Source: Pseudomonas sp. FP198
GTDB lineage: Bacteria > Pseudomonadota > Gammaproteobacteria > Pseudomonadales > Pseudomonadaceae
Assembly (NCBI RefSeq): GCF_030687895.1
Contig: NZ_CP117452.1
Span: forward strand, 3,489,501-3,553,500
Length of the DNA: 64,000 nt
Direction: 5' to 3'
Shown: positions 10,437 to 18,381 of the stretch, one piece after another
Layout: each line of letters starts with the position of its first letter
How positions within the stretch are numbered: position 1 is the stretch's first letter
Translations under genes and position numbers: made by a program
Notes under the pieces: model-generated
What the model was told of the DNA's origin: nothing
Seen by the model: only the letters and a program-made list of their open reading frames with translations
Database searches by the model: none

Positions 10437-11771
10437 TCAGGCTTCGCGGCGCTGGTCCAGGGTCTGGGCGAATTCGCCCATGACCTCCACCACCTGCTTC
10501 GCCCCCCGGTGGATGTCGAGGATGACGGTGCCAGCCTGGTTCGCCAGCTTCACGCCTTGCTCGGCCTTGGCGGTACTCGATTGCATGCTGCCCACCGCCT
10601 GCCTGGCCAGGTCGCGGTTCTTGCCGACCACTTCGGTAATGGCAACGGTCGCCTGGCTGGTGCGCCGGGCCAGATTGCGCACTTCATCGGCAACCACCGC
10701 GAAGCCGCGCCCCTGCTCACCGGCACGAGCGGCCTCGATGGCCGCATTGAGGGCAAGCAGGTTGGTCTGTTCCGCGATCCCCCGGATGGCGTCGACAATG
10801 TTGCCGATCTCTTCGGACTGCGCGCTGAGGGCGCTGATCCCGGTGGCGACCTGTTGCAGTTCATCGGCGATGCTTTGCACCACGGTCACGGTCTGCTGCA
10901 CGACGGCGGTGCCCAACTGGGTGTGCTCATCCGTCTGCCGGGACGTCTCGAAGGCCAACTGCGCCGCCTTTGATTCGGTCTGGCGTTGCTCGACTTCACG
11001 CGTGCTGTCGGTGGCAAACTTGACCACCCCGTACAAATGACCCTGGGCATCGTAGAGCGGGTTGTAGGTAGCCTGCAGCCAGACGGTGTTGCCGTGTCTG
11101 TCAACGCGCTGGAAAAGCCCGCTCTTGTATTCACCGCGATTCAGCCTGGCCCAGAAATCGCGATAGGCCTCGCCTTGAACTTCGCCAGGCTCACAGAAAA
11201 TCCGGTGGTGCTGGCCGCGAACTTCCTCCAGGCCATAACCCATGACCTTCTGGAAGTTGACGTTGGCATTGATGACATGACCGCCGAGATCGAATTCGAT
11301 CACCGCCATGGAGCGATCGATCGCCTGCATGAAACTCGACTCGGCCTGAGCCCGTAGCACGCGGTCGTTGATGTCGCGGCTGACCTGGATGATGCGTTCG
11401 ACCCTGGCGCGCTGATCGCGCACAGGAATGTAGCTGGCTTGCACCCACGACCCAAGGCCATCGCGCGCCAGATGAAGGTACTGCTGTTCGCTACCCTCAC
11501 CCTGCGCCAGTTGCTGCCATAACACCGCATATTCGCGACTGTTGGCGTACTCAGGCGCGCAGAACATCCGGTGATGCTTGCCGAGGATGTCCTCCAGCAC
11601 GTAGCCGGTCATATCCAGAAACAGCGCGTTGGCGCCAAGTATTTCGCCTGAAGGCGCGAACTCGACGATCGCCATCGATTGGTGAAAAGCCGTCCGCTCG
11701 GCTTCGAGAGAGGCCAGTGCGCCCTGGGTCTCGTGCAAGACGTCCTGATGTTTGCGAGTGCGAATGAACAT
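10437..11771 (-). CDS. Soluble PAS-PAS methyl-accepting chemotaxis protein (BdlA/Aer-like)
   Basis: The 444-residue cytoplasmic transducer has no transmembrane helix. Two PAS domains (each with [12 protein letters not shown] / [16 protein letters not shown] N-terminal caps and HHRMFC / HHRIFC motifs) lie at about residues 30-140 and 150-260. An MCP signalling domain follows, with the conserved hairpin tip [20 protein letters not shown]. The layout matches P. aeruginosa BdlA, which links redox or energy sensing to biofilm dispersal through CheA/CheW. The start ATG at 11771 was chosen; longer reading frames extend into the operator-like palindrome at 11872-11897. That site suggests regulation by a LitR/PplR-type light regulator. 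Confidence 0.9.
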
Positions 11772-11871
11772 TGGGGTGCCGCTCCCGGTGACATGAGTGC
11801 TTGGCCGTAGCCGTTCGAAAGGCGGAATGCCTTCCCGAAGAGACACTATTAAGCCACCACCGCAGCAAAAG

Positions 11872-11897
11872 TTGTACATAATTTTTCTTATGTACAA
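11872..11897 (-). promoter_or_regulatory. TGTACA-N12-TGTACA operator, putative LitR/PplR light-response site (MCP gene)
   Basis: TTGTACATAA (11872-11881) and TTATGTACAA (11888-11897) form a perfect 10-bp inverted repeat with a 6-bp spacer. The two TGTACA hexamers start 18 bp apart. This fits T(G/A)TACA-N12-TGTA(C/T)A, which I recall as the PplR1-binding sequence of light-inducible genes in P. putida. It lies about 100 bp upstream of the chemotaxis transducer start. Confidence 0.6.
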
Positions 11898-11931
11898 TTT
11901 CTGAAGGAAAATTCGCTCACCTGTCCAAGGC

Positions 11932-12147
11932 TTAGTGCCAACCGATTTTCCAGCGTTCGCTGTCGGTCAGCTCACGCCAGTCCAGCATGGCCGATCGTCC
12001 GCTGTATACCGCCTGCAACTCAACCTGAACGGGGCGATCCTGTTCGTCACAGAGCAATTGGGTTACCAGGAAATGCTTTTCCCGATGGACAGGGTCGCAG
12101 GCGGTCCACTTGGAAAGGTGGAGTTTGCGAGGGTTGAATTTATTCAT
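11932..12147 (-). CDS. TIGR02450-type small Trp-rich protein
   Basis: The 71-residue protein begins [16 protein letters not shown] and has [11 protein letters not shown] in the middle and [10 protein letters not shown] at the end. These features match the TIGR02450 Trp-rich family, whose biochemical role is unknown. GGAGG four bases before the ATG makes the start clear. In other pseudomonads, as far as I recall, family members sit near photolyase and light-responsive genes. That fits the TGTACA operator 38-61 bp upstream. It is on the same strand as the downstream chemotaxis transducer, which has its own copy of the operator. Confidence 0.85.
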
Positions 12148-12184
12148 GAATCCTCCAGTGCCGTCGCAGATGGGCGTAAAAACA

Positions 12185-12208
12185 TGTACAGGTTATTTCA
12201 TATGTACA
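12185..12208 (-). promoter_or_regulatory. TGTACA-N12-TGTACA operator, putative LitR/PplR light-response site (Trp-rich gene)
   Basis: TGTACA hexamers at 12185-12190 and 12203-12208 again start 18 bp apart. The 12-bp spacer shares seven positions with the one at 11879-11890 when both are read on the minus strand. The site ends 38 bp upstream of the small Trp-rich gene and may also influence the divergent hbcR gene. Confidence 0.6.
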
Positions 12209-12349: not shown

Positions 12350-13766
<1,417 letters not shown>

Positions 13767-13768
<2 letters not shown>

Positions 13769-13790
13769 AGAGACTCAAGTCTCTTTTTTT
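13767..13790 (+). terminator. Intrinsic terminator overlapping the hbcR stop codon
   Basis: AAAGAGACT and AGTCTCTTT (9-bp stem, 2-base loop) are followed by TTTT. The stem begins inside the TAA stop codon of hbcR. Confidence 0.8.
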
Positions 13791-13819
13791 AGACTGTGGA
13801 TCTTGGAGCTCTGCGCGCT

Positions 13820-13904
13820 CTTCGCGAGCAGGCTCGCTCCCACAGGTATAGGGTTCTGTCAGTCCCCCAGCATTTCCTGTGGGAGCGAGCCTGCTCGCGA
13901 AGAG
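13820..13904. repeat. REP pair, GTGGGAGCGAG family (C-type arms)
   Basis: Two inverted copies of the Pseudomonas REP element (each about 25 bp, both with GAGCCTGCTC cores) face each other across about 30 bp between hbcR and the GntP permease gene. Confidence 0.9.
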
Positions 13905-14002
13905 GTCGGCCCCTCCAACAAAAATCTCAAAACAGAGAATAATCCTTTTCCCTCGCTTTTCAGTAACAAAATTTATCCTTATCTATCAGCGACTTAGCCA
14001 TC

Positions 14003-14018
14003 TGGCACAGATATCGCT
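14003..14018 (+). promoter_or_regulatory. Sigma-54 (-24/-12) promoter of the ketone-body genes
   Basis: TGGCACAGATATCGCT fits the consensus TGGCACG-N4-TTGCW with exact GG-to-GC spacing; the only deviations are at the base after TGGCAC and the second T before GC. It lies 54 bp before the permease start, next to a sigma-54 activator gene, so HbcR is the likely activator. Confidence 0.72.
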
Positions 14019-14071
14019 ATAGCCCTCCTCAAAGCCTTACCCACAACAATAACAATCCCAGGAGACACACC

Positions 14072-15463
14072 ATGAGTGTGATCATTGCCTTGGCAGCCCT
14101 GACGCTGCTGATGGTTGCCGCCTACCGTGGCTACAGCGTCATCCTCTTTGCCCCGATCGCCGCCCTCGGCGCGGTCCTGCTTACCGATCCATCCGCCGTC
14201 GCCCCCGCGTTCACCGGGGTGTTCATGGACAAGATGGTCGGCTTCATCAAACTCTATTTCCCGGTGTTCCTGCTTGGCGCGGTGTTTGGCAAGCTGATCG
14301 AGTTGTCGGGTTTCTCCCGCTCCATCGTCGCCGCGGCGATTCGCCTGCTGGGCACGCGCCAGGCCATGCTGGTGATCGTGCTGGTCTGCGCGTTGCTCAC
14401 TTATGGCGGCGTGTCGCTGTTCGTCGTGGTGTTCGCGGTGTACCCGTTCGCCGCGGAGATGTTCCGCCAGAGCAATATTCCCAAGCGGCTGATTCCAGCC
14501 ACCATCGCCCTCGGCGCATTCTCGTTTACCATGGACGCCCTGCCCGGCACGCCGCAGATCCAGAACATCATCCCCAGCACCTTCTTCAACACCACCGCCT
14601 GGGCGGCGCCGTGGCTGGGCGTGATCGGTACGATCTTCGTCTTCTGCTTCGGCATGCTGTTTTTGCAGCGCCAGCGCAACAAGGCCCAACGCGCCGGTGA
14701 AGGTTATGGCACCGAACTGCGCAACGAGCCGGAAACCGCCGAAGACATCAAGCTGCCCAACCCGTGGATCGCGGTTTCGCCGCTGCTGGCGGTAGGGATC
14801 ATGAACCTGTTGTTTACCCAGTGGATCCCGCAGTGGTACGGCAAGACTCACAGCCTGGCGCTGCCGGGCATGGCGACACCGGTGACCAGCGACATCGCCA
14901 AGCTCACCGCGATCTGGGCGGTACAGGCCGCCTTGCTGGTGGGTATTGTCATGGTGCTGCTGTTCGGCTTCCGCGCGATTCGCAGCAAACTGGCCGAAGG
15001 CAGCAAGAGCGCGGTGGGCGGTGCCTTGCTCGCCGCGATGAACACCGCCTCGGAATACGGTTTCGGTGCGGTGATCGCCTCGTTGCCGGGCTTCCTGGTG
15101 CTGGCCGACTGGCTCAAGAACATTCCCGATCCGCTGGTCAACGAAGCAGTCACCGTAACGCTACTGGCAGGCATCACCGGTTCCGCTTCGGGGGGCATGA
15201 GCATCGCCCTGGCGGCGATGTCCGAAACTTTCATCAGCGCCGCCCACGCCGCCAACATTCCCCTGGAAGTGCTGCACCGGGTGGCCGCCATGGCCAGCGG
15301 CGGCATGGACACCCTGCCCCACAACGGCGCGGTGATCACCTTGCTGGCCGTCACCGGCCTGACCCATCGTGAAGCCTACAAAGACATTTTCTGCATTACG
15401 CTGATCAAGACCCTCGCGGTGTTCTTCGTGATCGGTGTGTTCTACGCCACTGGCATTGTGTGA
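14072..15463 (+). CDS. GntP-family permease, probable 3-hydroxybutyrate/ketone-body transporter
   Basis: The 463-residue integral membrane protein has about 12 hydrophobic segments and GntP-type features (KLYFPVFLLGAVFGKLIE, YGGVSLFVVVFAVYPFA, MASGGMDTLPHNGAVITLL). GntP proteins are proton symporters for hydroxy acids. Its place directly downstream of hbcR and a sigma-54 promoter, and 7 bases upstream of hydroxybutyrate dehydrogenase, argues for uptake of 3-hydroxybutyrate rather than gluconate. A GGAG site precedes the ATG. Confidence 0.88.
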   Translation: MSVIIALAALTLLMVAAYRGYSVILFAPIAALGAVLLTDPSAVAPAFTGVFMDKMVGFIKLYFPVFLLGAVFGKLIELSGFSRSIVAAAIRLLGTRQAMLVIVLVCALLTYGGVSLFVVVFAVYPFAAEMFRQSNIPKRLIPATIALGAFSFTMDALPGTPQIQNIIPSTFFNTTAWAAPWLGVIGTIFVFCFGMLFLQRQRNKAQRAGEGYGTELRNEPETAEDIKLPNPWIAVSPLLAVGIMNLLFTQWIPQWYGKTHSLALPGMATPVTSDIAKLTAIWAVQAALLVGIVMVLLFGFRAIRSKLAEGSKSAVGGALLAAMNTASEYGFGAVIASLPGFLVLADWLKNIPDPLVNEAVTVTLLAGITGSASGGMSIALAAMSETFISAAHAANIPLEVLHRVAAMASGGMDTLPHNGAVITLLAVTGLTHREAYKDIFCITLIKTLAVFFVIGVFYATGIV

Positions 15464-15470
15464 GGTTTCC

Positions 15471-16247
15471 ATGACGACATTTCTTTCCGGCAAGACTGCC
15501 CTGGTCACCGGCTCCACCAGCGGCATCGGCCTGGGCATCGCCCTGAGCCTGGCCAAGGCCGGCGCCAACCTGATCCTCAATGGCTTCGGCGATGCCTCGG
15601 CGGTGATCGCCGAGGTCAAGCAGTTCGGTGGCAAGGTCGGCCATCATCCGGCCGATGTCAGCGACCCGGCACAGATTGCCGACATGCTCGCCTACGCCGA
15701 GCGCGATTTCGGCGGCGTGGACATCCTGGTGAACAATGCCGGGATCCAGCACGTGGCCGCAGTAGAGGATTTCCCGGTGGAGCGCTGGGATTCGATCATT
15801 GCCATCAACCTGTCCTCGGTGTTCCACGCCACTCGCCTGAGCCTGCCGGGCATGCGCGCCAAGGGCTGGGGACGGATCGTCAACGTCGCCTCGGTGCATG
15901 GCCAGGTCGGCTCGGTGGGCAAGGCCGCCTACGTCGCCGCGAAGCATGGGGTGATCGGGCTGACCAAGGTGGTTGGCCTGGAAACCGCCACCAGCAACGT
16001 GACCTGCAATGCAATCTGCCCAGGCTGGGTGCTGACGCCACTGGTGCAGAAACAGATCGACGACCGCATCGCCAGCGGCGTCGACCCGCAGCAGGCCCAG
16101 CACGATCTGTTGGCCGAGAAGCAACCGTCCCTGGAATTCGTCACCCCGCCGCAGCTGGGGGAACTGGTGCTGTTCCTCTGCAGCGAAGCCGGCAGCCAGG
16201 TGCGGGGCGCGGCGTGGAATGTTGATGGAGGATGGTTGGCGCAGTAA
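15471..16247 (+). CDS. hbdH: 3-hydroxybutyrate dehydrogenase
   Basis: The 258-residue short-chain dehydrogenase oxidises (R)-3-hydroxybutyrate to acetoacetate with NAD+. It has the NAD-binding motif TGSTSGIGLGIA near the N-terminus, NNAGIQHV, and the catalytic Ser-Tyr-Lys region ending in YVAAKHG. PGWVLTPLVQKQI and the C-terminal NVDGGWLAQ are typical of bacterial 3-hydroxybutyrate dehydrogenases. GAGG precedes the ATG, 7 bases after the permease stop, so the two are co-transcribed. The product would feed acetoacetyl-CoA synthetase encoded next. Confidence 0.93.
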   Translation: MTTFLSGKTALVTGSTSGIGLGIALSLAKAGANLILNGFGDASAVIAEVKQFGGKVGHHPADVSDPAQIADMLAYAERDFGGVDILVNNAGIQHVAAVEDFPVERWDSIIAINLSSVFHATRLSLPGMRAKGWGRIVNVASVHGQVGSVGKAAYVAAKHGVIGLTKVVGLETATSNVTCNAICPGWVLTPLVQKQIDDRIASGVDPQQAQHDLLAEKQPSLEFVTPPQLGELVLFLCSEAGSQVRGAAWNVDGGWLAQ

Positions 16248-16260
16248 CCCTCCGCGATCC

Positions 16261-16354
16261 CCGTGGCGAGGGCGCTTGCTCCCGCTCGGCTGCGTAGCGG
16301 CCGCCTATTGGGGCCTGCTTCGCAGTCCAGCGGGAGCAAGCTCCCTCGCCACGG
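16261..16354. repeat. Inverted repeat, GTGGCGAGGG family (GAGCTTGCTC-type)
   Basis: Outer arms CCGTGGCGAGGG...GCTTGCTCCCGCT and its inverse AGCGGGAGCAAGCTCCCTCGCC bracket an inner CTGCGTAGCGG segment. It sits between hbdH and the acetoacetyl-CoA synthetase gene, where it could uncouple their expression. Confidence 0.85.
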
Positions 16355-16425
16355 AAGCGCTTCTCGCCATAAATAACGCTGTGTGCTGCAATGTTCGCAA
16401 GCCCCGGAAAAACAAGAGGCACCCC

Positions 16426-18381
<1,956 letters not shown>

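Follow-up and report, generated by a model that had tools for sequence, protein, structure and literature searches.

Candidate class II LitR operators at a PAS-PAS chemoreceptor gene and a TIGR02450 gene in Pseudomonas: predicted members of a blue-light regulon

Two neighbouring minus-strand genes of Pseudomonas sp. FP198, one encoding a soluble chemoreceptor and the other a small tryptophan-rich protein, are each preceded by a TGTACA-N12-TGTACA site, and the locus raises the question of whether both answer to the light-dependent repressors that recognize this pattern. The sites lie in a 64,000-nucleotide stretch, hereafter the window, which spans positions 3489501-3553500 of the single 5,859,309 bp contig of the host genome (Table 1). 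From sequence comparison within the genome, across the genus and in other genera, we consider it highly probable that the two genes, together with RudS-type, photolyase and furan-fatty-acid genes, are part of a LOV-LitR blue-light regulon that is shut off in darkness and derepressed by light.

Table 1. Features of the chemoreceptor-TIGR02450 locus, in window coordinates
Feature	Position	Strand	Basis or description
Soluble PAS-PAS-MCP chemoreceptor, 444 aa, BdlA/McpS-like layout	10437..11771	-	Pfam PAS_3, PAS_4, PAS_9, PAS, MCPsignal; clade A in tree
Candidate promoter element TGGCTTAAT	11848..11856	-	16 bp downstream of chemoreceptor operator, conserved
Predicted class II LitR operator, chemoreceptor gene	11873..11896	-	TGTACA-N12-TGTACA, palindromic half-sites; ends 101 bp before ATG
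TIGR02450 / DUF2389 Trp-rich protein, 71 aa	11932..12147	-	Pfam 68.6 bits (cut-off 25); NCBIfam 56.9 (cut-off 36.85)
Predicted class II LitR operator, TIGR02450 gene	12185..12208	-	TGTACA-N12-TGTACA; ends 37 bp before ATG
Sigma-54 activator with PAS domain, divergent	12350..13768	+	Domain scan

Both window sites match exactly the consensus T(G/A)TACA-N12-TGTA(C/T)A described for PplR1 of P. putida in the consulted excerpts of PMC9758184, so that the original prediction was correct in equating them with the PplR1/LitR site. The two TGTACA pairs that it places upstream of the two minus-strand genes are confirmed, the first beginning at 11873, one base later than proposed (11872). The half-site starts are exactly 18 bp apart (spacer 12) in both pairs, as claimed; the spacers themselves, TAAGAAAAATTA and TATGAAATAACC when read in gene direction, are identical at only 7 of 12 positions, which makes their description as "similar" a weak claim. 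When the window was shuffled 100 times with dinucleotide counts preserved, two matches never arose. Besides the four hexamers in the operators the window contains ten single copies of TGTACA (8059, 13725, 17225, 19953, 43764, 56513, 56965, 58633, 59671, 60031), a total of 14 compared with 3.66 expected from shuffles. The element downstream of the chemoreceptor operator is possibly an extended -10 element: GGCTTAAT is present in 13 of 15 aligned upstream rows, one of the two exceptions (L030) being misanchored such that the site aligned there is that of its TIGR02450 gene, its own chemoreceptor site lying at +246. No TGGCTTAAT element was found upstream of the other-genus chemoreceptors L150-L157.

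The Pfam scan gives the window chemoreceptor the BdlA-type layout, two PAS domains followed by an MCP signalling domain, and its structure model is confident for the two PAS domains and weak for the signalling rod. The tryptophan-rich protein scores above the curated cut-offs for TIGR02450 / DUF2389; its model is a small, mostly-beta fold (pLDDT 92.5), and four tryptophans are invariant across 47 sequences. A structure search with this model returned no match at E <= 0.001, just weak small-barrel hits, and a literature search on the family found no paper. On the plus strand, positions 12350-18381 hold the sigma-54 activator followed by transporter-like, dehydrogenase-like and CoA-ligase-like reading frames, a set that, by its sequence features, looks suited to short-chain acid use.

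A scan of the whole genome returned five perfect TGTACA-N12-TGTACA sites and none of the reversed pattern, against about 0.08 sites expected from the base composition of the window, and no further site appeared when the R/Y consensus positions were allowed with 0 mismatches. Downstream of the site at 1041794 come, in order, a gene whose product combines 2-thiouracil desulfurase and DUF1722 domains, a gene for a class II LitR homologue, phrB and an SDR gene; the consulted parts of PMC11417400 describe this domain pair as the RudS layout and RudS as a frequent component of light-responsive operons. The site at 3082722 precedes SnoaL, SDR, FAD-oxidoreductase, DUF1365 and CMAS-type (ufaM-like) genes, and that at 3088235 lies beside the end of this SnoaL to ufaM-like cluster, before a short minus-strand reading frame and a 101-aa gene. 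The short frame (50 aa; L007:12245-12752, with the 101-aa gene next to it) is similar to the C-terminal part of a longer L106 gene and is perhaps a decayed gene. In P. mendocina, phrB and ufaM are 25- to 33-fold light-induced (PMC9758184, in part); the P. putida counterpart is PP_0738-0742 (PMC11014904, in part). Two of the three genome sites outside the window head clusters of the type induced by light in P. mendocina, which counts for the regulon reading. The host RudS-type/pplR1 promoter has the form TTGACT-N16-TATGAT with the perfect site between promoter and ATG, the same arrangement as P6650 with its Site 2 in the accessible text of PMC9758184. An operator with 0-1 mismatch was sought at the host folM and folE genes and not found, the best match having 4 mismatches. 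Allowing one mismatch to the consensus gave 18 places in the genome versus 12 for the reversed control, and we regard these places as mostly noise; the one addition accepted, on its position before an FAD-oxidoreductase gene, is 1042976.

Genes for two class II LitR homologues and one short LOV protein are present, as are phrB and folE; the partners named in the original prediction (litR/pplR, LOV, phrB) can thus all be found in the genome, and the absence of LitR/PplR homologues, which would have told against it, is ruled out. As expected of class II, both LitR homologues contain MerR_1 and no more than one of two possible B12-binding domains: B12-binding_2 reaches 22.9 bits (cut-off 23) in one, and the other has no hit at E<=0.001. 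The second LitR homologue matches CarH chains at 5.5e-18. It adjoins the short LOV gene (L026:8117-8590), with folM- and folE-like genes nearby, the name folM being given by position and layout similarity only. Short LOV proteins have been studied intensively as photoreceptors. This one has the expected form, a LOV core with the conserved cysteine (motif YQDCRFLQ) and no effector domain in 157 aa, close to the typical 150 or so; its best solved relatives match at 1e-70 to 1e-52. A strict LOV pattern had no match in the whole genome; a shorter pattern with one mismatch had six, among them the short LOV protein (L023, beside LitR2). Across the genus LitR was found in 147 of 149 genomes, so its presence does not discriminate, and a comparison of LitR presence with site number was set aside as uninformative.

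Across the genus, 337 perfect sites occur in 140 of 149 genomes versus 7 reversed-pattern matches (counted by eye). Chemoreceptors at 68-100% identity are present in 12 of 398 genus genomes, and the next proteins are at about 56%, the one exception to this gap being a partial 71% match in G218 (residues 141-444). These 12 genus loci and 12 more from a family search form clade A, in which 22 of 24 chemoreceptor genes have a site within 200 bp when spacers of 11-13 are counted, 18 of them with spacer 12; spacers 11 and 13 were accepted only after being observed. The same count gave 6 of 21 for group B (45-57% identity) and 0 of 20 for group C (51-54% identity). Three group B loci (L173, L174, L193) came from an EAL search and all have sites, the remaining 18, chosen by chemoreceptor similarity, contribute 3 with sites, and five with an EAL gene nearby (L134, L137, L138, L142, L144) have none. 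Group C consists of more distant chemoreceptors, used because a first control set of 18 (2 with a spacer-12 site within 250 bp) proved impure, some members being EAL/LOV-linked with spacer-13 sites. Spacers of 11 or 13 instead of 12 were seen at L126, L147, L155, L156, L139 and L141 and at TIGR02450 promoters such as that of L122.

In a tree of 63 of the 65 chemoreceptors (L131 and L143 were left out, their translated rows being too short), the 24 clade A sequences form one branch with support 99/99. The site label changes 3 times on this tree compared with about 21 in shuffles, a count that is not a probability because near-copies make labels cluster. Among 17 distinct clade A spacer-12 sites the hexamer columns are 97-99% identical and the spacer columns 66%, the hexamer value being high by construction since the sites were picked by pattern; the 15-row upstream alignment, chosen independently of the pattern, has the same contrast.

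At the TIGR02450 gene the association recurs in more varied surroundings. The gene is present in 98 of 149 genus genomes, and a consensus site falls within a stretch of roughly 3.2 kb in 26 of 30 loci. Its neighbours there are an FAD-oxidoreductase and a RudS-type gene (19 loci), FAD-oxidoreductase only (4), folE (1), a window-type chemoreceptor and activator (3), or a different, convergent chemoreceptor (3); the gene thus turns up in different neighbourhoods and mostly keeps its site. No consensus site was found in the stretch at one of the FAD-oxidoreductase-only loci (L060) or at the three convergent-chemoreceptor loci. The latter (L069, L071, L083), in which TIGR02450 lies beside a different chemoreceptor without a LitR-type site, indicate that the two families meet repeatedly and not only through a shared operator. 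Where TIGR02450 and chemoreceptor genes occur together, 18 of 21 loci show a site of spacer 11-13 no further than 200 bp away (spacer 12 in 11), with some strains counted twice: L027-L031, included in these 21 and outside the 24 clade A loci, partly repeat other genomes, and the chemoreceptor operators of L027, L029 and L031 are identical to those of L127, L125 and L148.

In other genera the chemoreceptor gene can lie in the same region as the photoreceptor gene. Regions of 16-17 kb were examined around 8 of the 23 clade A loci other than the host's own, five of them chosen for a nearby LOV gene, and LitR2, LOV, chemoreceptor, RudS-type gene, pplR1 and phrB occur together within 17 kb in 7 of the 8, the exception being L163. 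In six regions (L158-L162, L164) the chemoreceptor and RudS-type genes are separated by an EAL-type gene. Domain scanning identified it as EAL in L158, and a search for EAL genes recovered the remaining five copies at 85-90% identity. A consensus site separates the EAL-type gene from the divergent RudS-type gene in 5 of the 6, and in L164 a PAS-GGDEF gene intervenes. In a second group of six chemoreceptor-EAL pairs, every pair is preceded by a site of spacer 12 or 13, although some of these regions were chosen because a site or hexamer had already been seen; LOV is close by in L196, L197 and L199. Over all EAL loci a consensus site is near just 8 of 30, so the EAL gene per se is no marker of the regulon. 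A stand-alone EAL-type gene is recurrent beside LitR/LOV-linked chemoreceptors (L158-L162, L164, L196-L201), pointing to c-di-GMP.

Elsewhere, a CHASE3-GAF sensor-kinase-like gene (the L119 copy was scanned) is preceded, at a distance of about 110-150 bp, by TGTACA-N12-TGTACA in L098 and L119 (1501-1524), with a divergent response-regulator gene in L119. Rows with GC-rich spacers in G017, G034, G047, G139 and G140 may represent the same place. By its site the sensor-kinase-like gene is a candidate further member of the light regulon.

These observations fit the following scheme. In the dark, class II LitR repressors of the PplR/PmlR type would occupy both window sites and hold both promoters shut; in blue light the short LOV protein would bind LitR and remove it from the DNA; and the chemoreceptor and TIGR02450 protein would then be made along with the RudS-type desulfidase, photolyase and furan-fatty-acid genes. 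We infer LitR binding and light induction at both window promoters from the sites and their recurrence at both genes in relatives, which supports the membership of a light regulon that the original prediction put forward. Its further link to motility or biofilm behaviour, and the "biofilm-dispersal" label of the chemoreceptor, are more conjectural; the induced protein may alter swimming or detachment from biofilms by way of its PAS domains. Counting against the regulon reading are the host folM and folE genes, the four siteless TIGR02450 loci, and L152 and L154, in which the chemoreceptor lies beside LitR and LOV, yet no site is found within 200 bp.

The strongest competing explanation, which we nevertheless judge unlikely, is that these sites are bound by a different regulator whose palindromic recognition sequence is the same, and that both genes respond to a signal other than light. 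TGTACA is a short palindrome, LitR binding here is predicted, and some relatives have spacers of 11 and 13 in place of the published 12; identical perfect sites, however, mark the light-type clusters of this genome and also, in other genera, a chemoreceptor gene located within a LitR-LOV region. We give still less credence to the suggestion that the site at 12185-12208 serves the divergent sigma-54 activator gene instead of, or besides, TIGR02450: it lies 141 bp before the activator ATG in a shared intergenic region, and most clade A loci within the genus have the activator next door, but L030 has TIGR02450, chemoreceptor and both sites with no activator within the stretch, and TIGR02450 genes located elsewhere usually still have a site near. 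Chance matches without function, conceivable in that only 12 bases are specified and a minority of related loci have no match, are barely credible given the genome count relative to expectation, the 337 to 7 ratio in the genus, and the recurrence at the same gene in clade A compared with group C.

Beyond membership of the LOV-LitR regulon, we offer a broader and clearly more tentative proposal, to which we assign somewhat less than an even chance: that a chemosensory and c-di-GMP output is dedicated to class II LitR and short LOV. A clade of PAS-PAS chemoreceptors, whose genes in relatives lie together with those for LitR, LOV and a stand-alone EAL protein, would let blue light switch swimming or detachment from biofilms, an arrangement that would have been assembled at least twice (in clade A and in the chemoreceptor-EAL clade), and the window would hold a reduced version with the tryptophan-rich protein. 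Should the chemoreceptor, and in relatives perhaps the EAL gene, obey the LitR-LOV switch, light sensing would reach behaviour in non-phototrophic soil bacteria, and the TIGR02450 family would gain a physiological setting.

The LOV-LitR switch itself is known. In P. mendocina, according to the excerpts of PMC9758184, LitR acts as a repressor in darkness until illuminated LOV binds it and frees the promoter, and two TGTACA-N12-TGTACA sites lie inside the PmlR2 footprint. The LitR regulon in the literature consulted, partly in excerpt, comprises DNA repair, pterin, fatty-acid and tRNA-related genes, and the excerpts of PMC9758184 contain no mention of chemotaxis or motility. A chemoreceptor under a LitR operator was not found in the open-licence literature, and it is within that scope that the chemoreceptor (perhaps c-di-GMP) output branch may be called new; the P. 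putida light-induced gene list lies outside it and might already include TIGR02450 or the chemoreceptor.

With the PplR system of P. putida KT2440 and the PmlR2/PmSB-LOV system of P. mendocina the host shares the operator consensus, LitR and short LOV homologues, and the target clusters phrB, ufaM-like, pplR1-like and folE near LOV; it differs in that the window targets are a PAS-PAS chemoreceptor and TIGR02450. The MerR-type repressor BluR of E. coli is likewise relieved by a blue-light receptor, which there is the BLUF protein BluF and not a short LOV (PMC9758184, in part). In layout the window chemoreceptor resembles BdlA (PA1423) and McpS (PA1930) of P. aeruginosa, soluble proteins in which a pair of PAS domains is combined with a short signalling domain of the chemoreceptor type; FAD has been assigned to the PAS domains of both (PMC8694187, in part), and no report of light control of either was found in the literature consulted, itself partly in excerpt. 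In P. syringae DC3000 blue light raises chemoreceptor levels, as predicted for the host, by way of a LOV histidine kinase and the bacteriophytochrome BphP1 (PMC8508746, in part), whereas in the host a short LOV protein is predicted to act on a LitR repressor at the promoter.
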